Positions 2,849 through 62,571 of a stretch of DNA of 64,000 nt are shown piece after piece. Source of the stretch: a virus; the IMG/VR virus record IMGVR_UViG_3300046167_000873, positions 86,921-150,920 of that record; one strand, written 5' to 3'. A program made the position numbers and the translations under genes. The number at the start of each line of letters is the position of its first letter. The first letter of the stretch is position 1. The notes beneath the pieces are model-generated. The model was not told the DNA's origin, did no database searches, and was given only the letters and a program-made list of their open reading frames with translations.

Positions 2849-4036
2849 TTAGAACTCCAAAATTACTCTTATTTCTTCTGTTTGATCTTGCTGGCGTGAA
2901 ATAGGTACGTCATTTTGTATATATATGACGGCTCCTTCGTTAGGATCTAAATCACCGTATGATAAATCTAAAATATCTGCATTTACTCCGGAGACCACAC
3001 TCGCGAATGTTGCGCCAGATGATCGGCCAGTAATAATTGCTGATTGTCCTGCAGATGCTGTTACAAAATCGCCTACAACACGAGTAAGGTTTAACTGATC
3101 ATCATTCCAAGAGTGAATGTATCCAGTTGTTTCTTCGCCTGTTGCAGCATCTACTTGAAAAACCTGTTCATCAAGTTGAAATACACCTTGAGTCACATTA
3201 CCTTGTATCTTAAACAGCTGATTAAAATCTTCAAATTGGAACTGTGCACTGAATGTTCCTATTCTACTATTTATATCAATTGACTGAACGTTTCCTGTGG
3301 CTCTTGAAGTCAAACCATAAATGAGCTCACCAGTCTTAAACTTAGGAACTACTTTGTTACCAAGAAATGATGTATAGTTTGTTGGTGTTCCAACTGGTTT
3401 AGGTGGTGCATTATTATCAACAACACATGTAGCCAATTCTTTTGTTTGATATGCAATGATGCTGTAATCACCACCGGGTTCTAAGAATGGAATAGTATCT
3501 TGTAAAATGATTGCTGTTGTATTACTGCCAGCACCAACCGTACCTAGATATTTACCAGTACCAGTCACGGATTGCATATAGATATTTTCACCAGGAGTTA
3601 AGAATGTATCGAAGGATGAATCTCCTGATTGCAATACTAAAGACTTACCATCATCTTGTACTGTATTTGCAGTAAATGTACCTTCTATTTTTATTTTCTT
3701 AAACTGAACAACATCTTCGCCTTCAATAAATTCAGTTGTTGCTTCAGTAAAATAGAATTGTGTGTTTGAGAAAACAGGATCACGAATAACACCAAACTGC
3801 GAGAATGTATTTTCTGGAGAGACTAAGTCAGATTCTGAACTGTTGAAGTTAGCAACAATGCTCATCTTAGATGCACCTAACTCAACAATGTTGTTTGCCC
3901 CATGGCCTCCCTGTGGAGGTATGATGGCTCTTAAATCAGAAGGTATAATAGTAACTGGTTCGCCATTAATTTCATCAGAAATCAATGGAGGAATCTTGGC
4001 GGTAGCAAACTTATAATCTGCACCAGTATCAAACAT
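2849..4036 (-). CDS. 8: Baseplate wedge gp8, C-terminal part (separate frame)
   Basis: The open frame is the C-terminal portion of a gp8-type baseplate wedge protein. It ends RQQDQTEEIRVILEF, and T4 gp8 as I remember it ends with a very similar DQTEEI tail. The frame stays open upstream of this ATG to about 4092 and encodes KAFARAIVDSNASNSIIRVE before the Met, so the ATG at 4036 is probably an internal Met, not a start. The part lies in the -1 frame relative to the gp8 N-terminal frame at 4072-5091. A joined product would be about 747 residues, longer than the 334 of T4 gp8. Either recoding or a one-base deletion explains the split. Confidence 0.8.
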   Translation of the reverse strand: MFDTGADYKFATAKIPPLISDEINGEPVTIIPSDLRAIIPPQGGHGANNIVELGASKMSIVANFNSSESDLVSPENTFSQFGVIRDPVFSNTQFYFTEATTEFIEGEDVVQFKKIKIEGTFTANTVQDDGKSLVLQSGDSSFDTFLTPGENIYMQSVTGTGKYLGTVGAGSNTTAIILQDTIPFLEPGGDYSIIAYQTKELATCVVDNNAPPKPVGTPTNYTSFLGNKVVPKFKTGELIYGLTSRATGNVQSIDINSRIGTFSAQFQFEDFNQLFKIQGNVTQGVFQLDEQVFQVDAATGEETTGYIHSWNDDQLNLTRVVGDFVTASAGQSAIITGRSSGATFASVVSGVNADILDLSYGDLDPNEGAVIYIQNDVPISRQQDQTEEIRVILEF

Positions 4037-4071
4037 TTCAACACGAATAATACTATTAGATGCATTACTAT

Positions 4072-5091
4072 CTACGATTGCTCGAGCAAATGCTTTTTCG
4101 TTTCTGTACCATCGCCGATAATTCTTACTTCTGGGAAAATATCATATGATGATGTATTGTCAAGCGGCGTAGTAAATTGATCTTCAACATAGATAACTAC
4201 GCCAACACCTGTTACAACATCAGACCTTAATATCCGTCTATATTGACCGGCACCTACTCCTGATGTAATATAGATGATGCAGTTCTTGTAGAAATCAATA
4301 ATTTGTCGTCCACCAACAACTCTATACCATTGGTTAACATTTGCTTCACCAGCAACACTAGTCAGTGTTTGACCTGATGCAATTAATGCACCGTTCTCAG
4401 CAATATCTGGTGTAATTCTATTAAAGTCATTATCTGAAAAATCAGCTGAGATATAGTTGTTATGGTTTTTGCCTTCATCAAGAACGCGAATAACATCAAT
4501 AGCACCAGGTTTTGAGTTGCTTTGAATTGTAGTATTAGCAGTAATTGGAATGAGCTTTTGTGTAGCAAACTTATTGAAGGTTGTAGAATCTATGCTGTAC
4601 AGGTATTTCCACTGATAACCATCGTTTGTTTCGTAGTAATCATCACCTGATACAAAAAGATTCTCATCATATCGTGCATCTTGGAATAAAGGCTTAACAG
4701 TTGATGGAGCGCCATTGTTGTTATACAAACACTTATAAACGTGTTTAAACGCATCTTCATCAACAACAGTATAGAAGTTCTTTTCAAAAAGATTAACTTC
4801 AGTATCATCGTACATCGTGAATATCGTACCAGCTTCCCAATCATTGCGATTAACAACAAAGTTAAAATCCCTTTCGTCAAGTTTCTTGCCTATGATCATA
4901 TTTCGAAACGCACCGATATTCATTTTTTGAGTGGTTTCAATAGGCGCTGAAATTTCATCAAGCGTAGAACCATCAGTGACATGATCACCAATAAATGAAT
5001 AATAAACAGTATTAGCCGGTTCAGTAATCGATTCTATAAACTGATCGATCATGTGAGTTTTAAATTCAGCTGGTACTAGTGACTTAGCCAT
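4072..5091 (-). CDS. 8: Baseplate wedge gp8, N-terminal part, stops early
   Basis: This frame carries the gp8 N-terminal signatures: a start resembling the VTSKFRTEKML region of T4 gp8 (here VPAEFKTHMIDQF), a VNRNDW motif like the T4 IPRRDW, and YQWKYLYSI like YVWEYLFEI. It stops at 4072 after a short out-of-frame tail (HLLEQS), while the -1 frame continues with conserved gp8 sequence to 2849. gp8 is a dimer in the baseplate wedge that contacts gp7, gp10 and gp53. The gene follows gp7 with an 18 bp gap, in the T4 order 6-7-8. Confidence 0.82.
   Translation of the reverse strand: MAKSLVPAEFKTHMIDQFIESITEPANTVYYSFIGDHVTDGSTLDEISAPIETTQKMNIGAFRNMIIGKKLDERDFNFVVNRNDWEAGTIFTMYDDTEVNLFEKNFYTVVDEDAFKHVYKCLYNNNGAPSTVKPLFQDARYDENLFVSGDDYYETNDGYQWKYLYSIDSTTFNKFATQKLIPITANTTIQSNSKPGAIDVIRVLDEGKNHNNYISADFSDNDFNRITPDIAENGALIASGQTLTSVAGEANVNQWYRVVGGRQIIDFYKNCIIYITSGVGAGQYRRILRSDVVTGVGVVIYVEDQFTTPLDNTSSYDIFPEVRIIGDGTETKKHLLEQS
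4093..4099 (-). other. Apparent frameshift point in gp8 (A-run G AAA AAG)
   Basis: On the minus strand the zero frame reads ACG AAA AAG CAT and the -1 frame reads GAA AAA GCA TTT, where conserved gp8 sequence resumes. The A5 run resembles the bacterial slippery heptamer A AAA AAG but has G in the first position. Adding one A to the run would also restore the frame, so a homopolymer error or a real one-base deletion fits equally well. Confidence 0.6.
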
Positions 5092-12762: not shown

Positions 12763-14277
12763 CTACGTGATTGCTGTTACGATACCGGCTATGACAGTAA
12801 CTACCTTACCATCTGCCGAAGTAAATGAGCCTGATGCACCTTTTGTTGTTCCTAGGTTACCATCAACTTTAATGCCGCCGTCTACGTAAATACCAGCATT
12901 AATAACTAAACCGCCTTTTGCTTCTATCTTTTGAAACCCCTCAACAACAATATTACTGTCTTCTTTTACTGACATATAATGTTGTTGTTGAATAGTTGTT
13001 ATTTGTGCACCACCAACAATTGTCTTTTGGTTATTAGCAACTGTCAATATAAAATTATTCTTGTCCTCAATCGGAGCAGGTGTTAATCTGTACTCATTTG
13101 CCGGATCTACACCAACACTCAATACATAGTTATTGCCAGTTGTTTGTATTGTGTTATTAGATACATCTAAATATAGGTTATTGCTGTCAATTGCACCTGT
13201 TTGATAGTTGTCCCTACCGTTATTATTTTTTCGATTATCAGGTGTTTGATCCCAACCAATTGTCCAGTGTGCAGTGTTACCTATCTTTTGGGTTGACGTG
13301 TTTGCAACTTCTACGTTGTGATCTCTTAAAAGCAATTGATTCTTATCTTTAACAACGACCTCAAAAGAAGAGTCCATTGTCTTTTTGCTACGGCGACCTA
13401 AGTAATCGTCTTCGGTAACTCCACCTGCTGTTACATAAGAATAACCAGATGGTCCAAAATCAGGCCACGTAGTTTTATCCTTGTCACCTGATGATCTTGT
13501 ATCGCCGTCAAAGAATGGTGATGGACCATTTGATATCTCTTCGTAACAACCACTGCGATGCCAAATATGTATTCTTTCATGCTTAGGTGTATCATCTATT
13601 TCTATTGCATGACCAGATTTAGTCGTGTACGTTGTGTTATATGGATATTCTGTTGAGTATGCCGTAGGGAATTCATCAACTGGTGATTTTTTCTTTGGGT
13701 CATCTTTCCACAAAGTACTAACACTGTATGGTTCTTTTGGAAGTGTTTGACCAGATCCACCACGCTCTTTCTCGTCATCAAAGAAATAACCTTTTGCAAG
13801 AGAGCTTACATCATGAAACTTAAAGTTCTCTTCAGGTGGTTCTCTTAGATCTTGAAGCATCGATTGTGGATCACTACCAGGTTCAGGATACATCGACACC
13901 TTATGGTATGTTCCAAAGATCATTGGAATATTTGCTTCGTGGCCGTCTAAATAAAAGCCAAAGCAATAAGTCCCTACTGCGATACCAGTCGGTGATAAGC
14001 CAACAGCATCAATCCAATCAGGTACAAATGTTTCTTCATCATATTCTAGTTCGTTAATTTTCTTCCAAGATAAGCTTGCCGATTGGATTGCAGACATCGG
14101 ATATGCCCACAAAAGATCTTCATCTTCTAAACCAAATGTTTCTTTTTTAAGACCTAACTCACCAGTTTGATCGTGGATAACACGTATTTTAACTCGGCCT
14201 AATCTTTCCTCGTCTTTTATATCTACAACTCTGGCCATAAACCAGTGAAAAGAATCTCCGAGATTATAATATGACAT
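12763..14277 (-). CDS. 5: Baseplate central spike gp5-like (OB fold plus beta-helix)
   Basis: The 504-residue protein begins with a gp5-type OB domain (FHWFMARVVDIKDEERLGRVKIRV, ending near GTYCFGFYLDGHEANIPMIFG). The C-terminal third, rich in NNxxxxVxxxxxxxV strands and repeated Ile/Val-Gly-Gly turns, is consistent with the triple-stranded spike helix. I see no T4-lysozyme-type catalytic region between them, as in marine relatives that lack the gp5 lysozyme. The spike pierces the outer membrane and sits on the hub. The start has a strong GGAGAG ribosome-binding site. Neighbour on the upstream side is the gp27-like hub, its known partner. Confidence 0.85.
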   Translation of the reverse strand: MSYYNLGDSFHWFMARVVDIKDEERLGRVKIRVIHDQTGELGLKKETFGLEDEDLLWAYPMSAIQSASLSWKKINELEYDEETFVPDWIDAVGLSPTGIAVGTYCFGFYLDGHEANIPMIFGTYHKVSMYPEPGSDPQSMLQDLREPPEENFKFHDVSSLAKGYFFDDEKERGGSGQTLPKEPYSVSTLWKDDPKKKSPVDEFPTAYSTEYPYNTTYTTKSGHAIEIDDTPKHERIHIWHRSGCYEEISNGPSPFFDGDTRSSGDKDKTTWPDFGPSGYSYVTAGGVTEDDYLGRRSKKTMDSSFEVVVKDKNQLLLRDHNVEVANTSTQKIGNTAHWTIGWDQTPDNRKNNNGRDNYQTGAIDSNNLYLDVSNNTIQTTGNNYVLSVGVDPANEYRLTPAPIEDKNNFILTVANNQKTIVGGAQITTIQQQHYMSVKEDSNIVVEGFQKIEAKGGLVINAGIYVDGGIKVDGNLGTTKGASGSFTSADGKVVTVIAGIVTAIT

Positions 14278-19270: not shown

Positions 19271-19978
19271 ATGTTACCTAAGATATCACAACCGTTATAT
19301 GAAATTAATCAACCTTCGACCGGTGATATTCTTCAAGTTCGGCCGTTCCTTGTTAAAGAAGAAAAGATACTACTAGGAGCAAAAGAATCTGGTGATGGCA
19401 ATGACATTTATATGGCGATTAAGCAGATCGTTAATAACTGTGTCACGAATGAAGGGTTTGACGTTAACGATATCCCAATTGTAGATATGAACTATATTTT
19501 TATTAAATTGAGAGCATTATCTGTAAGTCCAATTGTAAAGTTTAAAGTCCAAGATAGTACTGATAATATCGAGTATGAACTTGAAATGGATTTAACTGAA
19601 GTAGAAATAAAGACTGACGAAGATCATAGCATGAAAATAGATATTGATGATCAGATTGGCATTATGATGAAGTATCCTACTCCGTCACTTTCAGAAAAAG
19701 TAAAAGATATTGAAACAGAGGTTGAATTAACAACGGCAACAATTGAAGATTCGATAGATTATATTTGGGATGCTGATGATGTTTATCCATGGAGAGATGT
19801 TGTTCAAAAAGAAAGAACAAAGTTTTTAGATGAATTACCTATTGAGATCTATAAGAAAATACAGTCTTTTTACAATACAGCTCCGAGGATTGAGCATGTT
19901 GTAACATATGAAAATAGTGAAGGTACGGAGAAGCGCGTTGTGTTTCGGGATTTGAACGATTTTTTTACGCTAGCCTGA
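19271..19978 (+). CDS. 26: Baseplate hub protein gp26 (T4_baseplate family)
   Basis: The 235-residue protein is a gp26 homologue: start LPKISQPLYEINQPSTGDILQVRPFLVKEEKILL, DMNYIFIKLRALSVSP and the MIDLTE-like EMDLTEVEI block. The strong site GGAGAAAAATT precedes the ATG. The zinc-ribbon cysteines of some relatives are replaced (the C-terminal THVVTYENSEGTEKR region has none). The frame ends right after FF encoded by T TTT TTT, while the -1 frame continues with conserved sequence, so a longer fusion product is probable. gp26 is required for hub assembly in T4. Confidence 0.88.
   Translation: MLPKISQPLYEINQPSTGDILQVRPFLVKEEKILLGAKESGDGNDIYMAIKQIVNNCVTNEGFDVNDIPIVDMNYIFIKLRALSVSPIVKFKVQDSTDNIEYELEMDLTEVEIKTDEDHSMKIDIDDQIGIMMKYPTPSLSEKVKDIETEVELTTATIEDSIDYIWDADDVYPWRDVVQKERTKFLDELPIEIYKKIQSFYNTAPRIEHVVTYENSEGTEKRVVFRDLNDFFTLA
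19960..19966 (+). other. Putative -1 ribosomal frameshift site (T TTT TTT)
   Basis: In the gp26 frame the codons are GAT TTT TTT ACG, so the T7 run makes a perfect X XXY YYZ heptamer. Slipping one base back gives TTT TTT TAC GCT AGC and enters the frame that runs to 20178. The zero-frame stop (TGA) follows 9 bases later. A T8-to-T7 error is the alternative explanation. Confidence 0.6.
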
Positions 19979-19989: not shown

Positions 19990-20178
19990 TTGTATAACCA
20001 TTACAAAATATTATTTGACATAACTCAGTATCACAAATTATCGATGACGGATATCAATGAAATGATTCCATACGAAAGAGAAATCTACGTCGATATGATC
20101 GTTGAAAAAATGAACACAGAAAAACAAGAACAGCTTGGTGGTGGTGGAGCAGGAGTTCCAATCGAAACCATGCTATAG
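19990..20178 (+). CDS. gp26 frameshift extension (gp51-like small hub/chaperone segment)
   Basis: The frame encodes YASLSYINLYNHYK, FDITQYHKLSMTDINEMIPYEREIYVDMI and a Gly-rich tail. It has no good independent start: the first candidate is a TTG at 19990 without a ribosome-binding site, and the conserved-looking sequence extends upstream to TAC at 19966, inside gp26. With a -1 slip the product would be about 302 residues. The location, immediately before the tape-measure gene, is where gpG/gpGT-type chaperones are made. The IPYERE-type segment is typical of sequences that follow gp26 in marine T4-like phages as I remember them. Confidence 0.65.
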   Translation: MYNHYKILFDITQYHKLSMTDINEMIPYEREIYVDMIVEKMNTEKQEQLGGGGAGVPIETML

Positions 20179-20187: not shown

Positions 20188-22695
20188 ATGTCAGCAGCGT
20201 CAGTAGCAAAGATCTATAAAAGATTAGAGAAATTAAAAACAACATCAAGAGGCGTTGGCAAAGCTGGCGGTGATGTCCATAAAGCTGCCAGTGGTTCAGT
20301 CAGATCTATTACCAATATTATTAAAGGTGGTACATTAGGTGCTGTAGGTACCAGTTTATTGACTGGTCCAGATGTTCAACAACAAACTAACTTTGCTGCA
20401 CCTTTTTCTGTTGACTATACTAATCAAGCATCGAGGGTCATTGAAGACCCGATTATTGATGTACCGAATATAGTAGCTGCAGTTGAATCTGAAGAAATAG
20501 ATCAAACTCTACCAGAAGCACCAGAAAAAATTGATTTAACAACAACCGAAGAAATACCAGTTGTAGCTGAGGTTGATCCTAAAATTGTTGTTGAGAATTA
20601 TTTTAATAATGAATTAAAACCAATTCCTATTGAAGCGTCGCTACCAGCAAGCGTTTCATTTTCTGCAGAATCGCCTGAATTCCAAGCACTTCAAACTGAT
20701 GTCCAAAAACTGAATGGTTTATTGAATACAATCGGTGTTCGAATGAATACCGTTGAAGAAGCAATTGAATCTGCTGTACTTCAAAACCAAAAAACACTTA
20801 GAGATAATGAAAGGCGCAGAGACGAATCAGATGTAGAAGAAAGACCACAACCACAACAGCAGCAAAAACAACCTGGCGCACTAAGTAAAGCTGGTGATTT
20901 TATTGGTGCTGCACTTGGAGCACAACTCGCAAGATATACTCTACCCGCTATTGCATTACTTGGCGCTTCACTTGCTAGTTCTGCTGAATCTGCGTTTGAA
21001 GATGATAGTGAAGAAGCACTTGTCGAAGAGATGGATACAATTGATTCGATGCACGAGAACTATGTAAAAGCAACTGTTGGTGTTATGGCTGCAAAGTCGA
21101 CAGGCGCACTTAAAACAATTGCTGTAGGTTCTGCAATAGGAATAAGTCAGCTCAATGAAAAAGTTCCAAATGTAAAGACTGCTGTAAGCGCTCCTATGAA
21201 AAGAGCTACCCAAGCAATTGTAACAAAATCAGCACCTGTAACCACAGCAGTTAATTCGGCTTTAAAGTCTATTAAAGATATTCGGCCTAATCCAGTCATG
21301 ACTAAAGTTGTAGCTGGTTTAAAAGCATTATCTCAATTTATTACTTCTTTTGCTAAGAGTGTCGCAACTCCTTTATTGTCTAGTGCTTCTCGCTTATTAA
21401 CACCCGTTGCTGATGTTGCAGGAAAGGTCTTAAAAAGCGTGCTTGCAAAACCAGTTAATTGGTATGTAGGTATAGAGGCATTATTTTTGGCAATATCAAT
21501 GGGTGATGCATACCTAATAAACCCATCGCCAGAAGCAGAAAAAGCATTTCACAAAGAGACCAAAACAGCAATCAATAAGCTCATTGATATCATGGGTGGT
21601 ACATATATTGCTACGATGATTGGTGTTGCAATTGGTGGATCACTCGGCACTTTAGTATTACCAGTATTTGGTACTGTAGCAGGAACAATAATTGGTGCAA
21701 TATTTGGCATAATGCTTGGTGAGACTGTTTTTCAAATACTGCCGATCGATTCCATTGTCAATGCTACATACGATTATTTTATAAGGGGTGATAAAACAGC
21801 GTTTAATTCCCTTGGCAATAAAATGCTAAATCATGTTAAAAAAGAGCTTGCTGGATATGCGGACAGTTTGATTGAGACCGTCGATATAGTAACAGGTGGT
21901 GGTATTGAATTAGCCACGACTGAAGATATCTTATCTGAGTATGGTGATTTGACTCCAGTAAAATTACTCGACCAGGCTATGTCTGGTGTTGGTACTGATG
22001 AGAATGCAATTGCATACGCGTTTAAAGATATAAAGACTGAAGCACAAAGAGTTGCTATAAATGAAGCATACAAAGCTGAGACTGGATTAGATCTAGATGT
22101 ACAGCTAAAAAGTGAATTAAGCTCGTCTGAATATACAAAACTTGAACAGCAAATTAGCAAACAATTACAGAGACCAGTTCGAAGTGTACAAATCAACAAT
22201 ATAGAAACGGATATTGTAGAATCGAATATTGTACCGGCAGAGGTTGCACCAAACCAACAATCGCTTGTTCAACCAGTACGCACTGATGCTACTGTAACAT
22301 CATTAACAAAACCTAATATAACCACAAGTGGAAACATATTAGAAGTTATGACAGCGCCTCAGGGAGTTGTGGTGCCGCCTGCACAAGAAACAGAACAGAT
22401 TATTTCAAACATCTTAAATGAATCTACGGTGGTACAAGAAAAAATTGTTGATAATATGAACGTAACCAATATTAACACAGCAACGATAAGAAGCATACCA
22501 GATATTAGAATGGCTACTGTTGAACAAAAAGCTGGAGAAGGTGCTATTATTCCTATTATAGTTCAACCAAAAATAAGTCAACAACAATTTCAAAATCCGC
22601 TAGGATCAACATCTGGTCAATCGCAAATTGATACAGCAAGATCTGGATATAGAACAAGCGATGAATTCTTATCAAACTCATCGCTTCAGACTTAG
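20188..22695 (+). CDS. 29: Tape measure / hub protein (gp29-like) with annexin-like repeat
   Basis: The 835-residue protein follows gp26 as gp29 follows in T4-type order. A charged coiled-coil segment (about 165-225) and Gln-rich linker precede two Ala/Gly-rich hydrophobic stretches (about 236-265 and 472-518) of the kind seen in tape-measure proteins, which cross the host membrane. Residues about 592-655 contain LLDQAMSGVGTDENAIAYAF and YKAETGLDLDVQLKSELSSSE, closely following the annexin repeat consensus. The remaining C-terminus is polar and low in complexity. Length is above T4 gp29 (590). Its last 4 bases overlap the convergent gene. Confidence 0.78.
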   Translation: MSAASVAKIYKRLEKLKTTSRGVGKAGGDVHKAASGSVRSITNIIKGGTLGAVGTSLLTGPDVQQQTNFAAPFSVDYTNQASRVIEDPIIDVPNIVAAVESEEIDQTLPEAPEKIDLTTTEEIPVVAEVDPKIVVENYFNNELKPIPIEASLPASVSFSAESPEFQALQTDVQKLNGLLNTIGVRMNTVEEAIESAVLQNQKTLRDNERRRDESDVEERPQPQQQQKQPGALSKAGDFIGAALGAQLARYTLPAIALLGASLASSAESAFEDDSEEALVEEMDTIDSMHENYVKATVGVMAAKSTGALKTIAVGSAIGISQLNEKVPNVKTAVSAPMKRATQAIVTKSAPVTTAVNSALKSIKDIRPNPVMTKVVAGLKALSQFITSFAKSVATPLLSSASRLLTPVADVAGKVLKSVLAKPVNWYVGIEALFLAISMGDAYLINPSPEAEKAFHKETKTAINKLIDIMGGTYIATMIGVAIGGSLGTLVLPVFGTVAGTIIGAIFGIMLGETVFQILPIDSIVNATYDYFIRGDKTAFNSLGNKMLNHVKKELAGYADSLIETVDIVTGGGIELATTEDILSEYGDLTPVKLLDQAMSGVGTDENAIAYAFKDIKTEAQRVAINEAYKAETGLDLDVQLKSELSSSEYTKLEQQISKQLQRPVRSVQINNIETDIVESNIVPAEVAPNQQSLVQPVRTDATVTSLTKPNITTSGNILEVMTAPQGVVVPPAQETEQIISNILNESTVVQEKIVDNMNVTNINTATIRSIPDIRMATVEQKAGEGAIIPIIVQPKISQQQFQNPLGSTSGQSQIDTARSGYRTSDEFLSNSSLQT

Positions 22696-52661: not shown

Positions 52662-53251
52662 TTTTTATCTCCAGATTTACCAATTAAACCTAAAACTTTT
52701 CTTTTGTTTTGAACAGTTAAACTATTAAAGTCTTGTTTCCAAGATTTTACATCACGAGAAGAAACTTGAGCAGCGTTACCAGCAGCAACACCAAGAACAA
52801 TTGCACCAATAAGCGCCATTTTTGCCAACTTGCCTTCTTCTAATGAATTGTTGCCTTCATATGCAATAAATGGTGTCTTTGATTGAAAGTTCTTTTTTCT
52901 CATAATCGTTTTTGCTTTAACAGCAATCATCTCTTTACCAGATCTATCTCTTTCAGGTTTAATCACTGCTGGTATATTAATCTTAGACTTCTTATCTTTT
53001 AATACAGCTTCAGAACCCTTTTTTGCTTTAATCTTTTTACCTTGTTGACCATCTATTTTATCGATGATTGAAGAAATCTCATCAGCAGAAATATCTGGCT
53101 TATTTCTAGGATCATTAATCCTGTCCCTAAAATGATTGCCTTTAATATCAAGATCAATCTTATGCTTCTTTAATTTTAAGTCGGCTTTTTTCTGCAATGC
53201 ATTCAACTCAGAATTTGAAACGTCTTCTTTAAATTGACTAAATGATTTCAT
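52658..53251 (-). CDS. Basic phage protein with hydrophobic segment
   Basis: 197 residues from ATG 53251 (MKSFSQFKEDVSNSELNAL), chosen over upstream in-frame starts that overlap the DUF6321 gene; MKSFxxF is a typical start of the repeat proteins around it. Lys-rich in the middle, with a hydrophobic stretch near the end (MALIGAIVLGVAAGNAA). Member of the basic head-region group. Confidence 0.68.
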   Translation of the reverse strand: MKSFSQFKEDVSNSELNALQKKADLKLKKHKIDLDIKGNHFRDRINDPRNKPDISADEISSIIDKIDGQQGKKIKAKKGSEAVLKDKKSKINIPAVIKPERDRSGKEMIAVKAKTIMRKKNFQSKTPFIAYEGNNSLEEGKLAKMALIGAIVLGVAAGNAAQVSSRDVKSWKQDFNSLTVQNKRKVLGLIGKSGDKK

Positions 53252-53253
53252 CG

Positions 53254-54084
53254 TTAACAGTTCCAACGCTTTAATGACATTGCCTTCCTTGTCGGACGAC
53301 CTTTCTCGTCTTTCATAGGACCTTTCATTCCGCCCATTCGAGCACAAAATGATTTACGGCGCTTAGCAGCTTTACCGTCTGGATCGAGCTTACTTGGTGG
53401 AGTAGTTACAGCAGTTTTAACGCCAGCTGCCTTTGCACCTTTACGCGTCAAGCCAGCACCATCCTCGGTTGGTCGCCTATGACCTTTGGCATCATCACCA
53501 CGCTTATTTGGTTTGTCATCTTCGGTGATTGCGAGTTCAGTGTTGATAGCATCAAACGTTTCTTGAGCTGACATAGTATTGCGATATTCTAAAAATGCTT
53601 CCTTTAAATCTTCGTAGCATACATTGTACTTTTCGCTTTTCCTACGCAGATTCTTTTCAATCTTTTCGGTAATGATCTTCTTATATTCAGTTTCATAGAA
53701 ACCATAAACGACATTCATGATGTCATAGTTTTCACGACGAGTTTTTCTTGCTTGACTTAGCCTGCTCATTTCAGCTTTTCGTACTTTAGGAAGTAAGCGT
53801 TTAGCAAGACGAGCAATAACGGCTTTCTTATTAGATAATTTCTTATCAACCTGAGCTCGTTGTGAAAAGCCTAATTTTTTATAGTCTTGGCCGATCTTTC
53901 CTGCTAGTTTACCACGCAAAATTTGACGAGCTTGTTTTTGTGCCCGATTCTTTAGCTTTTTCTGGTCAGCCATTTTAAACTTTGCTTTCTTTCTTCCAAT
54001 TCTCAGTTTGCCCTTGATTCTTTTGGCAACCTGTCTTTTCTTCATTCTTTGCTGTAAATTTAGCACTTCATTGATATTAGACAT
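53254..54084 (-). CDS. Basic protein with DUF6321 C-terminus
   Basis: 276 residues, extremely Lys/Arg-rich. The N-terminal two thirds are helical and basic (RQVAKRIKGKLRIGRKKAKF); the C-terminal DUF6321 region GAGLTRKGAKAAGVKT, TPPSKLDPDGKAAKRRKSFCARM and RKAMSLKRWNC is well preserved. Likely DNA- or RNA-binding and packaged. First gene of the basic block, after a structured intergenic element. Confidence 0.75.
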   Translation of the reverse strand: MSNINEVLNLQQRMKKRQVAKRIKGKLRIGRKKAKFKMADQKKLKNRAQKQARQILRGKLAGKIGQDYKKLGFSQRAQVDKKLSNKKAVIARLAKRLLPKVRKAEMSRLSQARKTRRENYDIMNVVYGFYETEYKKIITEKIEKNLRRKSEKYNVCYEDLKEAFLEYRNTMSAQETFDAINTELAITEDDKPNKRGDDAKGHRRPTEDGAGLTRKGAKAAGVKTAVTTPPSKLDPDGKAAKRRKSFCARMGGMKGPMKDEKGRPTRKAMSLKRWNC

Positions 54085-54115
54085 GCTTTTCCCTGTAATA
54101 ACAGAGAAGCAAGGA

Positions 54116-54172
54116 TGAGGCGGGATATAAAGAATCCTGGCGATTGCCAGAATATGATGAAGGATTGCCTCA
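54116..54172. other. Nested intergenic hairpin structure
   Basis: TGAGGC (54116-54121) pairs with GCCTCA (54167-54172); AATCCT (54133-54138) with AGGATT (54161-54166); CTGGC (54137-54141) with GCCAG (54146-54150) as an alternative inner stem. Region 54085-54209 has no gene. It separates the glycan cassette from the basic head genes. Confidence 0.55.
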
Positions 54173-54209
54173 GCCTAACTTCATTAATTGTTATTATACT
54201 TATATGTTT

Positions 54210-54818
54210 TTAAAATTCACTAAATGGAACGTGATCCCAGGGTAACATGGTCTTTGGATCGTTGGATAAGTTGACTATTTGTGTATCACCTTTAAGAGCG
54301 ATCAGGCGATCCATAAGCGTCTTATATGGATCGGCCATTGCAATATACTCAGGTACATTTTTAAATTGCCAGAGAGGATCTGGGATGCCTCTGGTTTGCA
54401 TATCATATCCAACACCGTATGCTGCAGTTGATCCATCTGGTTGTGGTGTATAGTTCATATCAAAACCAATACAACCAATATGAGTCGGTTTTAAGTGGTG
54501 AAGTATCCAATACATTGTACCGAAATAGATAGGCAGACCTAAGTAAATCCTTGCTTTTTCCCATGGCATCTTTGACATGCCGCAATACGATGCTTTGAAT
54601 CCAAGATTGCCTTCTCTCGAGTGTACTTTCTGATACGCTCTCTTTTTCATATAGAGTTGTTTTCTTAAATCTTGAGGATAATCACCTGCATGTATTAAAT
54701 GGTCCCATTTCGTTGTTACTCGCCAAACATTATTTACACCAACAACCGTAACTTTATCTGTGTGCCAGTCGTTTATTTGTACGAGACTTGGTCCTGATCC
54801 TGCTGCAATGACTTTCAA
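54210..54818 (-). CDS. Putative glycan-modifying enzyme (DUF115/sialyltransferase-like)
   Basis: 202 residues beginning MKVIAAGSGPSLVQINDW, a GxGPS nucleotide-binding start like that of MAF/DUF115 and sialyltransferase-like proteins, then HIGCIGFDMNY. Last gene of the seven-gene cassette and coupled to it by ATGA. The enzymatic activity is a guess from fold pattern and context. Confidence 0.6.
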   Translation of the reverse strand: MKVIAAGSGPSLVQINDWHTDKVTVVGVNNVWRVTTKWDHLIHAGDYPQDLRKQLYMKKRAYQKVHSREGNLGFKASYCGMSKMPWEKARIYLGLPIYFGTMYWILHHLKPTHIGCIGFDMNYTPQPDGSTAAYGVGYDMQTRGIPDPLWQFKNVPEYIAMADPYKTLMDRLIALKGDTQIVNLSNDPKTMLPWDHVPFSEF

Positions 54819-55591
54819 AATCTACGGCCTCTTGCATGGTCTCTATCTTTAAACATAAAGCAGTCATAGTGACTGCCGTGATGACCTGTTTTTGTGAGAC
54901 TATCATTAAGTGTTTTGATTTCTCTGTATCCATATTTTTCATGGTTTTCAACAAATATATTATAGCCATGACTTCGCACTTCGTCTTCCATATCTTGCAT
55001 TGTATAGTTTTGTTCTTTTAATGCCAGATCACTGCATTCAATATAAAGGACAGGCGAGTGCTTCTTTAATAGTTCACGAAATCCTTTTAGCGCCCTAATT
55101 TCACTACCTTCAATATCCATCTTTACAAAATCAATACTATCCAAATCCTTAAACATTTCATCAAGAGTAAAACCTTTGACCCCTGTTTTAGATGGGTGGT
55201 ATTGCTTAATCCAGCTTTCGTTTGCTTTTACTCTTGATGGGTCTTTTACAGCCATTGTTTGATTACTATCAGAAACAATCGCATGGATTGGTGCGATAAC
55301 ATTCTCTAGTCGATTATGCTTTATATTTCTTAAAAGAACTTCATAGCTTTCATTAGTCGCTTCAACAGCATAAATCTTTGGTGGTTTACACTGCAACGCA
55401 AAAGGAATCGAGAAGGTTCCAACATGTGCACCAATATCTAAAACAATATCTGTGCTATGTATGACTTTTTGATCTAACATGATCTTTTGCTTTGGTGTTT
55501 GTAATCCACCGTATCTGACCATGTTACTGTATATTTTATCGTCTGGAACTTCGAGGTTGCCATACTTAGACTCGATCATTTTTGTTTTCAT
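54815..55591 (-). CDS. FkbM-family methyltransferase
   Basis: 258 residues. SAM motif I VLDIGAHVGTFSIPF (50-64), acidic YAVEATNESYEVL, and FVKMDIEGSEIRALKGF with YIECSDL, diagnostic for FkbM enzymes that O-methylate sugars or natural products. Coupled by ATGA on both sides in the glycan cassette. Confidence 0.92.
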   Translation of the reverse strand: MKTKMIESKYGNLEVPDDKIYSNMVRYGGLQTPKQKIMLDQKVIHSTDIVLDIGAHVGTFSIPFALQCKPPKIYAVEATNESYEVLLRNIKHNRLENVIAPIHAIVSDSNQTMAVKDPSRVKANESWIKQYHPSKTGVKGFTLDEMFKDLDSIDFVKMDIEGSEIRALKGFRELLKKHSPVLYIECSDLALKEQNYTMQDMEDEVRSHGYNIFVENHEKYGYREIKTLNDSLTKTGHHGSHYDCFMFKDRDHARGRRF

Positions 55592-56178
55592 AGATACAGT
55601 TCCGTGTCGATTCTTGTGTGAGCCTTTATATTATATCCAAGTTCTGCATATAATTCTGCAACCTTATTTCTTTCTTCTATTGCTGCGTGCTTGTGTTCAA
55701 ATATAATTCTTTTTGGATACACTGACTTATCTTTCCCTACAAGGTACGAATAATAATCAATGAGTATTTTACAGTCATTGCCTTCTACATCAATCTTTAA
55801 CTGCTTTATTTCTTCAATCTGCTTTAACTCTATAAAATCACCGAGTGACATCTGCGGCACAGTTGTCTTTACAAACTTGTGTTCCATCTTAAACCGAATT
55901 GCTTCTGGGTGCATATAACCAATTGAGTTACAACCTTTCCACCAATAAGGTAGATTTTCTTGAGCAATGATTTCAGGTGGTATATGATATATTTCACATG
56001 TTCCATTTGTACCATCAGGTGAAATTGCAATACAGCATTTCTCTACCTTAGGTTTATTCGGTAACCTATCTAGATATGTTTGTATCGGCTCTATTGAGAA
56101 TCCAACAGTGTGATCATCAGCAACCTCGATTAATGTCCTAAAATCACTTGTACCAATTTCTATAAAATCCACATTCAT
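55588..56178 (-). CDS. FkbM-like methyltransferase, short
   Basis: 196 residues. MNVDFIEIGTSDFRTLIEV is a variant SAM-binding start and LKIDVEGNDCKIL the FkbM DxEG motif, followed by KRIIFEHKHA. The Gly-rich loop is shorter than in the neighbour. Probable paralogue acting on the same glycan. Confidence 0.85.
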   Translation of the reverse strand: MNVDFIEIGTSDFRTLIEVADDHTVGFSIEPIQTYLDRLPNKPKVEKCCIAISPDGTNGTCEIYHIPPEIIAQENLPYWWKGCNSIGYMHPEAIRFKMEHKFVKTTVPQMSLGDFIELKQIEEIKQLKIDVEGNDCKILIDYYSYLVGKDKSVYPKRIIFEHKHAAIEERNKVAELYAELGYNIKAHTRIDTELYL

Positions 56179-56828
56179 TTCATAATCCTTTCATCATTAA
56201 ATTCTTCCTTCATCCAACCCTTATACTTACGGTGATAATGAATGAGTGTTTGATCAAATCTTGGTTCTTGATCCCAGCGGCCTAAATGCCAATTAAACTT
56301 TTCAGGCAATCCGTTAAACCTCTGCTGCTCAATCACAAATAGATTAATCATCAATTGATCCCATCCACCCATATGACCACCTGGTGGATTTTGAATATTC
56401 TTTTTAAAGTATTCACCGACCAAAGAATATATTTTTCGAGGAAATACAACAACACCAGAATTGCCATGTCCACCATGTGCATCTAACCATTGGTTTCTCG
56501 ATTTCAATTTCATTTGAACATAGTTAATTCTATCATCTTGTATATGATCAAATATATTATCAAAGTTATTAGTGGCGAGTATGTCGCTATCCATAAAACA
56601 AATTGCGTCGTAGTCTTCACACCAACCTTCAATAAACGGCAGAAAGATACCATAGAAAGGCGCATGCCCAAAATCATGGTCTAAAAACTTATAATCAGAT
56701 CTACACTTTTCAGCATACTTTGATACTGACTTACGACTTAACACGTGATATTCATACCCTAAATCTAAACACGGTCCATCTGTCGCACGTGCTCTATCTC
56801 TGTAATATTGGTATATTAATGTCTTCAT
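56175..56828 (-). CDS. Glycosyltransferase, GT-A type
   Basis: 217 residues. AICFMDSDILATNNFDN contains the DxD metal motif after a nucleotide-binding strand, and YVQMKL, GNSGVVVFPRK and GGWDQLMINLF fit the GT8/GT32-like acceptor side. Likely transfers a hexose in the cassette. Coupled to the GT25-like gene by ATGA. Confidence 0.85.
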   Translation of the reverse strand: MKTLIYQYYRDRARATDGPCLDLGYEYHVLSRKSVSKYAEKCRSDYKFLDHDFGHAPFYGIFLPFIEGWCEDYDAICFMDSDILATNNFDNIFDHIQDDRINYVQMKLKSRNQWLDAHGGHGNSGVVVFPRKIYSLVGEYFKKNIQNPPGGHMGGWDQLMINLFVIEQQRFNGLPEKFNWHLGRWDQEPRFDQTLIHYHRKYKGWMKEEFNDERIMK

Positions 56829-57679
56829 ATTCTTTTTCTTCTTCTATAGCCTGCAGTTTTATTTGTTGGTTTATTCTTATACACATCTGTATTATTAGTA
56901 GTTGCCGGCTTCTCTGGTTCTGGCTTTGGCTTTTGTTTTCGTACCATTTTAGGTCTGTGTCTTGGGTGTGTTGTATCATGCGCCCCAATATAGTGTTCTG
57001 CAAATGATCCAATAAAGGGATAGTTCTTTGTGGCGCTTTTTGCCCAGATCGTACTTTTTCTTAACCAGCCAACTGCTGGTGTTGGCGACATAATTTTAAT
57101 CGGCACTTTTGTTTTGCGTGATTTTAAGAAGTGTGTATTATCTATAGCACCTGGAATACCAATATCTTCAAGCTCTTTTAAAAGAAGTCGTGCAGTTTCT
57201 GGTGTAATAGCATAAGCATGAGCACCTTCGTGGCCGGCACCAATAACATCTACAATTTCAGTCGGAGGGCCTGCTGTCACATGATCATAATCTTCTAATT
57301 TTTGTATCTTATATCCAAGTGCAATAATGCAGTTATCAATAAGATCGATATCTATCTTATGAAACATTACTGCATCATGTTCAAGAATAATCGCAGGCTT
57401 ACCGTGATCCCGTACTTTGCACCACGCCATTGCGTGACCTGATGTTGCGCATTGTGCTGTATTTCTTTTTGGTTTAAATGAATTAACGTTGAGTATCTTG
57501 GTTGGTACTTTTGCCCAAGCGTCCATTGCAACATTAGGTCCGCCGTGATTTCCATCAAACCACTCGATGTATTCCCATTCTAAACCAATTTTATCACACG
57601 AGTCAGAACAAACCTTTGCGTATTCTTCACTGATTAAATTGCCCTTCATCATAATAATAAAAGCTTTTGTTGGTTTCAT
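56825..57679 (-). CDS. Glycosyltransferase family 25-like
   Basis: 284 residues. KAFIIMMKG, AAQ-like AQCATSGHAMAWCKV and AIILEHDAV (E-x-D metal motif) plus HAYAITPETARLLL fit GT25 (LPS galactosyltransferase-type). The C-terminal 50 residues are basic and Pro/Lys-rich (RKQKPKPEPEKPATT), an unusual tail perhaps for membrane or virion attachment. Confidence 0.85.
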   Translation of the reverse strand: MKPTKAFIIMMKGNLISEEYAKVCSDSCDKIGLEWEYIEWFDGNHGGPNVAMDAWAKVPTKILNVNSFKPKRNTAQCATSGHAMAWCKVRDHGKPAIILEHDAVMFHKIDIDLIDNCIIALGYKIQKLEDYDHVTAGPPTEIVDVIGAGHEGAHAYAITPETARLLLKELEDIGIPGAIDNTHFLKSRKTKVPIKIMSPTPAVGWLRKSTIWAKSATKNYPFIGSFAEHYIGAHDTTHPRHRPKMVRKQKPKPEPEKPATTNNTDVYKNKPTNKTAGYRRRKRI

Positions 57680-58341
57680 AAAAGAATATCTAGTGCTTCA
57701 AAATCATTAGCGTAGTATCTTAAAACAGCATCCTTTGTTTTTTGGTCATAATACTCTTCAACTAATTCGTTCATTGGTTTTTGTGGACGCTTACCTGACT
57801 TATGTTGTTTAATTGAGTGCTTGATACTATGGCTTTTACTAAAAAGTTCAAGCTCTTGATTTAAATTTTCATATCGCCATATTTCTATGTTTGGTTGGAT
57901 TTGATCAGCCACTTTAATATAATCAATTTGACAAAATGCATTATTAGTATCTGATTCGTGAACGCCGTTAGAAAACACTTCTCTAAAATGGTTTGCGCTA
58001 GGTTGTTTTCTCTGTTGCTTACACAAAAAGAAATATAGACTTAACTGTCGATCAAACGGATTACGGAGAACCATAATTTTAGTCATTGATTTTGCTTTAT
58101 CACGGGTGATAATCTCGTTACTCACTAATTCATCGAGAGTTAAATGTATAAACCTACTCTGATGTCTATACTTGGATAAGACTGCTGGTGGGATATTATT
58201 GTTGTTTATCCCACAATCATTGACCGCAGTATACTGATCATTAGAGTCACAACAATTCCTTACAAAAAATTCTGCAAGACTAGAGCTTGCATTTTTTGGG
58301 ACTCGTAAGAATATAAAATTGTTTGAATGAGATACTACCAC
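57676..58341 (-). CDS. Sulfotransferase-like protein 1
   Basis: 221 residues. FLRVPKNASSSLAEFF (11-26) has the 5'-phosphosulfate loop pattern PKxASSS, and KIMVLRNPFDRQLSLYFF (89-105) the 3'-phosphate binding R...S pattern, as in carbohydrate sulfotransferases using PAPS. Ends YYANDFEALDILL. Coupled by ATGA with the GT25-like gene. Acts probably on a surface glycan. Confidence 0.82.
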   Translation of the reverse strand: MVVSHSNNFIFLRVPKNASSSLAEFFVRNCCDSNDQYTAVNDCGINNNNIPPAVLSKYRHQSRFIHLTLDELVSNEIITRDKAKSMTKIMVLRNPFDRQLSLYFFLCKQQRKQPSANHFREVFSNGVHESDTNNAFCQIDYIKVADQIQPNIEIWRYENLNQELELFSKSHSIKHSIKQHKSGKRPQKPMNELVEEYYDQKTKDAVLRYYANDFEALDILL

Positions 58342-59189
58342 TATTCTGACGCCTCAATAGCATTATAGATTTTAAAATCATTCGAATAATATTCTTTGAT
58401 TTTATCAATTATATTTTGATCTAATGATTCGAAATGCTTATGGATTGTTTTATTGGATTGAAAATCTGGCAGTGATCTACCACACATTTCTTCTAGCATG
58501 GGCTTTATTTTGGTATCTATATCACATGTTCTATAGACAGTCATCGGCTTACTAAAGTCAATTGTCTCGCTCTGAAGCGTTAAAATAAACCCGCTATACA
58601 AGTGACTTAAAACAGAAACAATCCCTTCAACTGGCGCTTCTGGATCATACTCATAAGGTTTAATGTGTTGGTATTCAATAAAATCTAATGGCTTAAATTC
58701 AGTTAATCTTTCAGGTGAAAAGAGATCACGCAATTTTTTACTTGTATTATTAAAATGGTTTTTTTCTCTGTCTGACTTTGCCAAATATGTTACGTTAGTA
58801 TGTTCCCAATCGATTATCCGCATATGTAGATTATTAAGAGCAGACACAAATCGAATCATTGGATCTTGTACAATAGCAATACATACTACTGGCGCCAGGT
58901 CTGAAACTTCTTCCTCAAAGTTTGATCTATATTTTTCTTCTGAGGCCCTCAGATATTTGATTTTTGTTTCTGCTGAAATCTCACTGTTTAATTTCCGTTT
59001 TTCATACTGATTTGGATCAATTATCCAATTATCTAAATAATCACACGAATCTTCACCTGACGCAGCAGCAACAAGCAAATTCTTGATTGTTTTTGAACCA
59101 CACCTTGGATTAGAATGTACTCTTACATACGTATCGCCGGCTTTAATTATTAAATGCCCTGTATCACCAGGCTGTACTGAGGATTGCAT
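58341..59189 (-). CDS. Sulfotransferase-like protein 2
   Basis: 282 residues. Same architecture as the neighbour: VRVHSNPRCGSKTIKNLL (22-39), AIVQDPMIRFVSALNNL (105-121) and a final IKEYYSNDFKIYNAI. The 5' loop is NPRCGSKT, less canonical than in its neighbour, so substrate or cofactor binding may differ. Heads the cassette; an AATAAATA-like element lies just upstream. Confidence 0.7.
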   Translation of the reverse strand: MQSSVQPGDTGHLIIKAGDTYVRVHSNPRCGSKTIKNLLVAAASGEDSCDYLDNWIIDPNQYEKRKLNSEISAETKIKYLRASEEKYRSNFEEEVSDLAPVVCIAIVQDPMIRFVSALNNLHMRIIDWEHTNVTYLAKSDREKNHFNNTSKKLRDLFSPERLTEFKPLDFIEYQHIKPYEYDPEAPVEGIVSVLSHLYSGFILTLQSETIDFSKPMTVYRTCDIDTKIKPMLEEMCGRSLPDFQSNKTIHKHFESLDQNIIDKIKEYYSNDFKIYNAIEASE

Positions 59190-59230
59190 ACCAATTCACC
59201 CTTGTCAATATTTCTTATATTTATTAAACA

Positions 59231-59875
59231 CTATTTAATAGTTTTACCTGGCGTTCCCATCATTACTTTAAACATTGTCTTACCACTAAAATCACGAAGG
59301 TATCCATAGTCGATGAGAAACGGAAATTTCTTAAGAGTTAATTTTGCATCGTCTGGTAATTCACCTCTATAGCCTTTAACAGGTATAATAGTATCTTTGC
59401 CCTTTGACATTTTAAGGACATCGTCAGGAGATATAAGAAATTGTTTTATGACTTCAGGGGGTGTTATTTTAAGCGCGAGCCCTAAAGCAGCTTTAGATTT
59501 TTCACCATACGCTCGCTTTAAGTCGTTTTTGCATATCTCTATTATACGGCGTTTTCCATCAGCGGATCCATCTGTTCCTGATGCAACGATCTTCCGTCCA
59601 CCCTTGTCTTTGTAAAAAGCAACAGCCACGACTTTACCGTTGACTGTTGCTACTTTCCAAAAAGGGATTTTCATCATGGCTTCTTTGGATTGGAAGCCAT
59701 TACTTTTGATGCCACCTATTGATGCATAGGATTTTTGAACCATATCCCAAACAGTGTCGATATAATCTTCTTTCTTAGGATTATCTGCAATTAAATTGAC
59801 GAATCCTTCGTTTAAGCTTTTAAACTCCTTAAATGACGTCGTCTGTATCTTCGTGTCCATATATAAGCTCTGCAT
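59231..59875 (-). CDS. Conserved phage protein (possible GNAT-like fold)
   Basis: About 208-214 residues; the start may be at 59857 (MDTKIQTTSFKEFKSLNEGF). YASIGGIKSNGFQSKEAMMKIPFWKVATVNGKVVAVAFYKDKGGRK fits an acetyltransferase-like beta-sheet core, and proteins of this kind occur in marine myoviruses near head genes. Overlaps the hydrolase gene by 47 bases. An exact late promoter lies 100 bases upstream. Confidence 0.6.
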   Translation of the reverse strand: MQSLYMDTKIQTTSFKEFKSLNEGFVNLIADNPKKEDYIDTVWDMVQKSYASIGGIKSNGFQSKEAMMKIPFWKVATVNGKVVAVAFYKDKGGRKIVASGTDGSADGKRRIIEICKNDLKRAYGEKSKAALGLALKITPPEVIKQFLISPDDVLKMSKGKDTIIPVKGYRGELPDDAKLTLKKFPFLIDYGYLRDFSGKTMFKVMMGTPGKTIK

Positions 59876-60458
59876 TTATATAAAATGATTTTATCAGTTC
59901 TATACTTTCATCCCAATGCTGAAACCGGTGATTACCACCAGGAAAAGAATGAACTTTAAAACTGCTATCATACTTATTTATAGTTGCATGAGAGTCAATA
60001 ACTTCATCATCCATATCAAGTAAAATAAGTCCACAGCCTTCATGACCCATCGGGTCATATGAATTTACAGTAGCTTCAGTAAGATGATACTTTTTACCGT
60101 CATACGTTTCACCATCACCAATTCTACGCTGTAGAGTCTTTTCAGGATCAACGGCTGGATTAATTGCAACAAACGGTATGCCGTATTTGTGGCCAAGACG
60201 TTGAGCTAACCAACCTCCCATAGAAGTGCCTATAAAAAGATCTATTTCAAGCAATTCTGATTGATGGTAAATACTATGATAAAACTCTAGCTGATCATCA
60301 ACTGATAAAGTATAATCTGGTGTAAAGTTCCAAACCGTTCCATGATGCAAGAATGAACTTACAAGCTTATTTAAATAGTACTTCTTAGTGCCTGGTTCTG
60401 GCAGTGGTCCATTGTCTAATGGTTGACCGCCAAACCCATTAATATACATCACATTCAT
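59829..60458 (-). CDS. Alpha/beta hydrolase (esterase/thioesterase type)
   Basis: 209 residues from ATG 60458 (MNVMYINGFGGQPLDNG). Catalytic triad by pattern: S79 in GTSMGGW, D151 in LLDMDDEV, H177 in PGGNHRF. YqiA-like small hydrolase. GGGAG lies ahead of the start. Contains an internal late promoter on the same strand for the next gene. Substrate unknown. Confidence 0.85.
   Translation of the reverse strand: MNVMYINGFGGQPLDNGPLPEPGTKKYYLNKLVSSFLHHGTVWNFTPDYTLSVDDQLEFYHSIYHQSELLEIDLFIGTSMGGWLAQRLGHKYGIPFVAINPAVDPEKTLQRRIGDGETYDGKKYHLTEATVNSYDPMGHEGCGLILLDMDDEVIDSHATINKYDSSFKVHSFPGGNHRFQHWDESIELIKSFYINAELIYGHEDTDDVI
59975..59982 (-). promoter_or_regulatory. Late promoter inside the hydrolase gene
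   Basis: Exact TATAAATA on the minus strand, 100 bases upstream of the gene at 59875, giving a leader of about 90 bases. Could drive the 59231 gene and the glycan cassette late. Chance occurrence cannot be excluded. Confidence 0.45.
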
Positions 60459-60459
60459 A

Positions 60460-60642
60460 TTAAACCATCTCCCGCTGTTCGTCGATTTGATCACCAATTC
60501 GATCTTCTATTTGATCAAGTTTGATACTTTTTTCTTTACCTTCAGGCGTACCAGAAGACCATGACTCCCTACTATTAAGAGTAAGCGAAGATATAATCAT
60601 ATAAATGTCTTCACCAGAAAGTTCTAGATTAAATTTTTTCAT
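60460..60642 (-). CDS. Small hypothetical protein (60 aa)
   Basis: MKKFNLELSGEDIYMIISSL and SIKLDQIEDRIGDQIDEQR: helical, acidic end. Two bases before the hydrolase start. Unrecognised. Confidence 0.6.
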   Translation of the reverse strand: MKKFNLELSGEDIYMIISSLTLNSRESWSSGTPEGKEKSIKLDQIEDRIGDQIDEQREMV

Positions 60643-60644
60643 TA

Positions 60645-60902
60645 TTACATGCCCCGTACAGTACGAATTGAAGATCGAGTAAACCTTGCACCTACTGAGC
60701 GTCGCTGTCGCAAATTAGCTTTGATCAACATGTGACGCACACCACGGTTGGTTTTTACTGGCTTTATATTACGACTGAAATTGAGGTTGAGGATAGGGCA
60801 GTTACCAGCCATGTGACACTCAGTGTCAAGGACACGCCAGTCCCACTGAGCAGGGTTACGTGCATCGCGTCGATCTTGAAGTTGCTGTAAAGTGATTGAC
60901 AT
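60645..60902 (-). CDS. Small basic hypothetical protein (85 aa)
   Basis: Start at ATG 60902 (MSITLQQLQDRRDARNP) after the shared GAGAGAAAATATT leader. Two Cys (DTECHMAGNCP) and an Arg-rich end (RQRRSVGARFTRSSIRTVRGM). May bind nucleic acid. Unrecognised. Confidence 0.65.
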   Translation of the reverse strand: MSITLQQLQDRRDARNPAQWDWRVLDTECHMAGNCPILNLNFSRNIKPVKTNRGVRHMLIKANLRQRRSVGARFTRSSIRTVRGM

Positions 60903-60948
60903 AATATTTTCTCTCTTCAATTAAAGGTTAACTTCATTTGATGGAACC

Positions 60949-60977
60949 ATTATACGATAGTTTTTTTGAAAAGTAAA
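60949..60977 (-). promoter_or_regulatory. Sigma70-like promoter, module copy 6 (extended)
   Basis: Minus strand TTTACT, 17 bases, TATAAT; similarity to copy 4 continues upstream into the ATGCATCGGGATCATC terminator arm. Confidence 0.85.
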
Positions 60978-60990
60978 TACTTATTTGTCA

Positions 60991-61071
60991 AAAAAAATGA
61001 TGATCCCGATGCATGATGCCCCCTCACCCGTCGGTGGGCAGGTCAACAGTTTTATCGGGCATGGGATCATC
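60991..61071 (-). terminator. Structured terminator or small RNA end
   Basis: GATGATCCC (60999-61007) plus ATGCCC (61016-61021) pair with GGGCAT plus GGGATCATC (61057-61071), 15 bp with an eight-base bulge. An apical CACC/GGTG hairpin lies inside. Seven U follow on the minus strand. It ends the operon at 61077-62555, or is itself a stable RNA. Confidence 0.65.
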
Positions 61072-61076
61072 AAAAA

Positions 61077-61160
61077 CTAGTATCCAGAAAGAGTTAAACC
61101 GAAATCCATGAGTAAACCAAAGGCAATTCCGATCAAGGCAATAATGATATAATCTTTCAT
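61077..61160 (-). CDS. 27-residue membrane peptide
   Basis: MKDYIIIALIGIAFGLLMDF... is one hydrophobic helix. The ATG overlaps the previous stop (ATGA), and GGAGC is ten bases upstream. Similar in kind to the 19-residue peptide at 26410. Role unknown. Confidence 0.5.
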   Translation of the reverse strand: MKDYIIIALIGIAFGLLMDFGLTLSGY

Positions 61161-61519: not shown

Positions 61520-61565
61520 AATATTTCCTCACTTCAATCAAGGGTTAACTTCATTTGATGGAAAC

Positions 61566-61594
61566 ATTATAGAACGGTTTTTCTTAAAAGTAAA
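61566..61594 (-). promoter_or_regulatory. Sigma70-like promoter, module copy 7
   Basis: Minus strand TTTACT, 17 bases, TATAAT, followed by the common leader. Confidence 0.8.
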
Positions 61595-61597
61595 CAA

Positions 61598-62555: not shown

Positions 62556-62571
62556 AATATTTCACCTTGTA

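Follow-up and report, generated by a model that had tools for sequence, protein, structure and literature searches.

The annexin fold, familiar from animals and plants, binds calcium and membranes, and the annexins of eukaryotes are built from four or eight repeats. A survey that described bacterial annexins contained no viral ones, and named more distant homologues, possibly viral, as what the disputed origin of annexins calls for (Kodavali et al., 2014, PMC3894181). The annexin domain PF00191 has also been listed among the domains linked to extracellular contractile injection systems (eCIS), where it was classed as a likely eCIS effector (Geller, 2021, PMC8213781). On the phage side, pb2 of phage T5 is a tape measure described as both fusogenic and muralytic in the account of Boulanger et al. 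(2008) relayed in PMC6116005. In the open literature that we searched, with subscription papers outside its scope, we found neither a phage annexin nor an annexin connected with a phage tail or tape measure. The fold and the calcium site described below are known; their placement in a phage inner-tail protein is new.

The window analysed here is a stretch of 64,000 nucleotides, part of a viral record of 150,920 bases. An 835-aa protein is encoded at 20188..22695 on the + strand, after the genes for a gp26-like baseplate hub protein (19271..19978, +; PF12322 E 4e-47, phrog_150) and a gp51-like baseplate hub assembly protein (19990..20178, +; phrog_634), which served as anchors of synteny. The gene order leading up to it is gp4, gp2-like, tube-like, gp26 and gp51, and the genes for gp27-like, gp5-like (12763..14277, -; an OB domain and a weak C-terminal trimer match), gp53 and gp48 proteins lie on the strand opposite to it; the names gp27 and gp53 are our own reading of phrog_350 and phrog_232, respectively. 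With gp4, gp26, gp51, gp53, gp48 and gp5 as neighbours, the T4-type setting that the first-pass annotation had assumed for this open reading frame (ORF) is borne out. The same order is found at the locus in cyanophages S-PM2 and S-ShM2 and in the Methylophilales phage Melnitz, and it is comparable to gp51-27-28-29 of T4; in three relatives of the 835-aa protein (L096, L099 and L100) gp26 is encoded on the other strand, at a distance of about 1.2 kb.

Among the large ORFs inspected in the late structural region, the 835-aa ORF stands out clearly by its long run of strongly hydrophobic residues (473-520). Because it follows gp26 and gp51, is modelled as mostly helical and carries this run, the protein is a candidate tape measure by position, and we consider it most likely that the phage is a marine, T4-like relative of the Kyanoviridae in which this is an inner-tail protein at the tape-measure (gp29) position. 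The protein had at first been called a tape measure outright; its place after gp51 agrees with that name, whereas sequence homology to T4 gp29 was undetectable when a family profile was compared with it (hhalign, 0.2%), and such proteins diverge fast. When the family was compared by hhalign with S-PM2p209, S-ShM2_013, Melnitz_107 and other syntenic clusters, nothing exceeded 30-40%, the best cluster matches being C1 over the hydrophobic region and C7 and C10 over short stretches. As no homology is detectable, the comparison with the cyanophage locus proteins is one of synteny only. Elsewhere in the window, a baseplate wedge gene is split or in two pieces (2849-5091, -): the ORFs at 4072-5091 and 2849-4036 match positions 4-228 and 246-478 of phrog_438 (baseplate wedge), its first and second half. 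The region 53000-63300 (-) is dense with small ORFs, some of them sulfotransferase- or glycosyltransferase-like in appearance; one example, 57679-58341, contains MTKIMVLRNPFDRQLSLYF.

In related phages, the proteins at the locus after gp26 and gp51 often bear a murein hydrolase. A set of 69 large proteins from IMG/VR relatives, all encoded after gp26, gave SLT (6), Phage_lysozyme2 (4), Phage_lysozyme (4), M23, M15 and SLT_3 (3 each), CHAP and GH19 (2 each) and other hydrolases singly, with some proteins matching two families; no annexin match was present among these 69 outside the family of the 835-aa protein. A Pfam-A scan of the 835-aa protein detected no murein hydrolase domain, none of the lysozyme type was found in the gp5-like protein, and PF18013, PF01464 and PF01551 had no matches in the viral record. 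One separate 179-codon frame in the record matches Phage_lysozyme and presumably encodes an endolysin. Many of the syntenic loci hold two large ORFs at this place, and the window holds a single one.

The locus of S-CREM2 encodes gp208 (1565 aa, GH19) and gp209 (1456 aa, Phage_lysozyme), which were detected in purified virions by mass spectrometry with 73 and 71 peptides, respectively (PMC10665884). Our own arithmetic on that table, to be taken as a rough guide, gives 0.047 and 0.049 peptides per residue, similar to the values of the spike/hub proteins gp210 (0.059) and gp211 (0.049). We also considered whether tail length scales with the locus proteins in cluster C cyanophages: S-CREM2 combines a tail of 418 nm with 1565 + 1456 aa at the locus, S-N03 a tail of 138 nm with 933 + 722 aa, and S-H34 a tail of 129 nm with 936 + 735 aa, so that the longer tail goes with longer proteins, a supportive but not a proportional relation. 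A further S-CREM2 protein, gp124 (2668 aa), which was considered as the tape measure of that phage, has its gene flanked by those for the baseplate wedge and the short tail fibre. S-PM2p209 (L004:7880-11383) has, besides Phage_lysozyme2, an ADP-ribosyltransferase (ART) match near its N-terminus (PF01129 E 1.3e-5, above the cut-off), and may possibly be an ejected enzyme within a tail protein.

The first-pass annotation had placed an annexin-like repeat inside the 835-aa ORF, and had proposed a PF00191 profile search, a structure prediction and a look at related proteins as checks. Indeed, hmmscan of the whole protein against Pfam-A returned a single annexin repeat (E 2e-7; residues 592-646, profile positions 4-57 of 66) that scores 31.4 bits against a curated cut-off of 25 bits. 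In a profile search of the phage's own genome the ORF reached 35.1 bits (E 2e-9), and 0 of 14 control genomes were matched. All 45 sequences retrieved by phmmer from the PDB were annexins, the best being annexin VI (E 3e-10), and a profile of six family members found annexin IV at E 4e-9, with everything at E <= 0.01 being annexin. The peptide quoted originally (21961-22155, +; residues 592-656) was correctly located, and only its extent had to be mended: sequence searches and predicted fold together define a structural domain of residues 590-661 (21955..22170, +), consisting of one repeat. The four (or eight) tandem repeats of an annexin core are not present, and the protein contains an annexin repeat without being a canonical annexin. 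Searches by tblastn with the whole protein, the repeat, the relative L096 and another phage GTDE domain gave no match in 50,697 phage records.

The predicted structure agrees with the sequence searches. Modelled at full length, the protein is mostly helical and of low confidence overall (pLDDT 40), with better values of 70-83 confined to the surroundings of the repeat. A second model, restricted to residues 575-680 and based on 31 aligned phage domains, reached a pLDDT of 82 (about 90 in the core) and a pTM of 0.67. Its helices A (590-599), B (605-611), C (618-632), D (636-643) and E (646-661) follow the order of helices A-E in an annexin repeat, with one extra helix preceding them. Among the best 50 Foldseek matches in the PDB there were annexins or annexin fusions throughout (prob 1.00, typically ~2 Å over 67 residues); the small size of the domain keeps the E-values modest (4e-3). 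A second structural aligner gave Z up to 9.8 and 2.2 Å over 68 residues with annexins in the top rows; the Z of a helical bundle is not decisive by itself, and helical bundles reach middling structural scores. BFVD contains a fold match as well, A0A6J5RF64, which is 801 aa long and comes from an uncultured Caudovirales phage. The five annexin helices looked for are thus present in the domain model, and annexins are its top structure matches.

The type II calcium site of the window protein is complete. The A-B loop, MSGVGTDE (residues 598-605; 21979..22002, +), contains M598-x-G600-x-G602-T603, which aligns with M28-G30-G32-T33 of annexin A5, and the alignment of phage domains identifies E643 (22114..22116, +) as the putative acidic capping residue corresponding to annexin A5 E72. 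The protein conforms to the pattern GxGT-[38-40]-D/E, with E643 40 residues after T603; in annexin A5, where the ligands are M28, G30, G32 and E72 with T33 in the loop, the acidic ligand is one residue closer. The position equivalent to E643 is D or E in 29 of the 31 aligned phage domains, and it was absent from the DNA pattern by which most of these domains had been retrieved. Calcium binding by the repeat of the window phage is plausible on this evidence. Judging from the aligned sequences, however, it cannot be the function common to the whole family, because the type II site is eroded in most of the relatives that keep the fold.

The look at related proteins showed that the family has inherited the repeat, which is kept at the same place in at least 13 relatives of 22-37% identity, most of which were found through N-terminal patterns. 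L078 (the same as L095), which came from an IMG/VR scan with the pattern AMxGxGTDE, has 871 aa, is encoded within the same arrangement of genes, is 38% identical along its length and has a Pfam match of its own. Patterns from the N-terminal half (VIEDPII, VExYF, NERRRDE), which are blind to the repeat, added L096-L099 and then L194-L205. Every member of sufficient length retains the C-terminal part of the repeat (from DENAxxYVADxIxS onward). The state of the calcium loop varies: the window protein, L095 and L096 have it whole, L097 almost so (GTNE), and L098 and L101 in part (KMGTDE and GMGVDE), and L099, L194-L199, L202 and L203 no longer have it (no GxGT). The fold has outlived the loop, since the loop-less relatives are still matched in hhalign by a profile made from GTDE domains of unrelated phage proteins (94%, E 9e-8). 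In a tree with long branches, the window protein groups with L095 (100/99), and the loop was likely lost in more than one lineage. Having calcium loops in states from intact to eroded, the family comes with a natural set of built-in controls. Further towards the C-terminus, most relatives have a second, more degenerate stretch (about 11 bits; hhalign 49.5%) that we tentatively regard as a repeat; it was sought in the window protein and is absent there. A distant family member of 1841 aa (L102:1808-7330), more than twice the usual size, has degenerate repeat-like stretches at ~581-635 and 656-738.

Preceding the repeat is a glycine-zipper hydrophobic segment (residues 472-530; 21601..21777, +), a candidate membrane-inserting hairpin, recognized by its hydrophobic run and by matches to Gly-zipper_Omp (E 0.0012) and DUF6861 (E 5e-5) that both remain under the Pfam cut-off; the relative L198 attains the cut-off for Gly-zipper_Omp. 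The repeat starts about 70 residues after the segment, and both lie in the C-terminal third of the protein. The best supported reading is that the repeat would be a membrane- or envelope-docking module at the leading end of an inner-tail protein, situated where relatives bear a hydrolase. The intact loop, the D or E in 29 of 31 domains, the retention of the repeat in relatives, the neighbouring hydrophobic segment and the hydrolase theme of the locus all support docking; against it, a single annexin repeat may bind membranes weakly. That repeat and glycine-zipper segment act together in envelope or membrane docking in this phage, with the mechanism proposed below taken as a whole, has in our estimate a probability of roughly 0.45.

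In this mechanism, sheath contraction would let the C-terminal end of the protein leave the tail tube into the periplasm, an orientation that is assumed by analogy with other phages. Seawater contains about 10 mM calcium, and this calcium would load the type II site in the periplasm. The repeat would then dock on anionic inner-membrane lipids (phosphatidylglycerol, cardiolipin), holding the glycine-zipper segment at the bilayer, so that the segment could insert and a path be opened for the DNA. In the loop-less relatives, docking might be calcium-independent or directed to another envelope ligand. The lipid ligand in the inner membrane, the supply of calcium from the medium, the exit of the C-terminal end first and the help in seating a channel are what we infer for these steps. 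We regard as tentative, and as somewhat doubtful, the more ambitious proposal that a calcium-loaded annexin repeat docks the inner-tail protein on the inner membrane and seats a DNA-channel segment, that this module recurs in phage entry and lysis, and that the phage repeats form a viral branch of the annexins.

The main rival to docking would be a structural or assembly role, in which the repeat is a helical bundle that packs in the hub or binds gp27, gp5 or gp48 and has no membrane role, its calcium loop being a relic or a stabiliser of the fold. The survival of the fold without the loop in most of the family would fit such a role, as would the second degenerate stretch that most relatives have and the window protein has lost. 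We consider it less likely than docking: unrelated phage proteins keep the acidic capping ligand in the same domain, and several phage GTDE domains have a peptidoglycan-binding part or a glycine-rich hydrophobic one beside them, an arrangement suggestive of the envelope. Phage contigs yielded ~40 distinct GTDE domains, and 6 of the 10 tested singly pass the Pfam cut-off. Glycine-rich hydrophobic stretches accompany the repeat in L008, L016 and L039, PG_binding_1 (PF01471 E 7e-10) accompanies it in L073, and some of these domains have endolysin-type PHROG matches. L008, L016, L039, L044 and L071 represent a recurrent type of phage protein with an N-terminal leader of the RIKxLM/RILxLH type, a glycine-rich hydrophobic stretch and a GTDE annexin-like domain, in some with a peptidoglycan-binding-like end.

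The same observations on L073 and the endolysin-type matches, together with the murein hydrolases of the relatives' proteins at the locus, could also be read as signs of a cell-wall or envelope binder that replaces the hydrolase and has murein, teichoic or lipopolysaccharide ligands instead of lipid. We know of no annexin repeat that binds murein, however, and the type II calcium/lipid site is complete here, which makes this improbable. We give slightly less credence still to the idea that the protein is a separate hub-associated or ejected cargo whose repeat is an effector-like domain delivered to the host, as predicted near eCIS loci. The undetectable homology to gp29 and the two large ORFs at many syntenic loci would accommodate it, and bacterial annexins provide precedents: a DNA-pattern scan of bacterial genomes gave at least 41 annexin-repeat loci among the 119 matches listed, including multi-repeat proteins with eCIS_core (L311:142-3213) and with the toxin domain Ntox50 (L295:372-3368). 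The statement of the first-pass annotation that GTDE repeats occur in proteins of contractile injection systems holds for the former and accords with the classification of PF00191 as a likely eCIS effector (Geller, 2021, PMC8213781). A phmmer search with the window domain reaches the bacterial multi-repeat annexins L235, L266, L264 and L311, and annexins seem to be more frequent in bacteria than the 2014 survey, with its thirty or so, indicates (PMC3894181). Against delivery as cargo, the Pfam-A scan of the 835-aa protein revealed neither eCIS_core (PF13699) nor a toxin or catalytic domain, and the window has just the one large ORF at the locus, with no other unassigned large, helical and hydrophobic tape-measure candidate among the ORFs inspected. 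Lastly, the likeness to the annexin profile might be that of any short helical bundle, arisen by chance or convergence, for which the length of only about 55-70 residues and the middling structural scores of helical bundles might speak. This is refuted for practical purposes by the E-values of 2e-7 (Pfam) and 3e-10 (PDB), by annexins alone heading both fold and sequence searches, by the exact calcium-site pattern, and by the presence of the repeat at the same place in relatives found via unrelated N-terminal patterns.

Among known systems, T4 gp29 resembles the window protein in lying downstream of gp51 in the hub cluster and in having a hydrophobic run, but has no detectable sequence homology to it and, to our knowledge, no annexin repeat. 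The cyanophage post-gp51 proteins S-PM2p209, S-ShM2_013 and S-CREM2 gp208/gp209 share the gene order and the large size, but bear Phage_lysozyme2, GH19 or Phage_lysozyme in place of an annexin repeat and are likewise not detectably homologous. On the present reading, the protein would resemble T5 pb2, as far as pb2 is described in PMC6116005, in that one inner-tail protein combines a membrane-active hydrophobic segment with an envelope module at its C-terminus; in that siphovirus the module is muralytic, whereas the window phage has an annexin repeat and no hydrolase was found in the protein or in gp5. This suggests that some phages dock on the host membrane with an annexin-like module, and a known membrane-binding fold, on a protein that probably leads the DNA into the cell, would be a concrete docking candidate for the crossing of the inner membrane by the DNA of contractile-tailed phages once the tube has pierced the outer membrane. 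Bacterial annexins are similar to the window protein in having single or few repeats in larger multidomain proteins and a GxGTD motif (PMC3894181), but are cellular and often accompanied by a toxin or eCIS_core, while the window protein is viral and has neither. The eukaryotic annexins A4, A5 and A6, which have four or eight repeats where the window phage has one embedded in an 835-aa tail protein, nevertheless share with it sequence (identity reaches 43% with annexin IV, across 68 residues), the A-E helix order and the GxGT...E site, and viral annexin repeats of this kind bear on the disputed origin of annexins.
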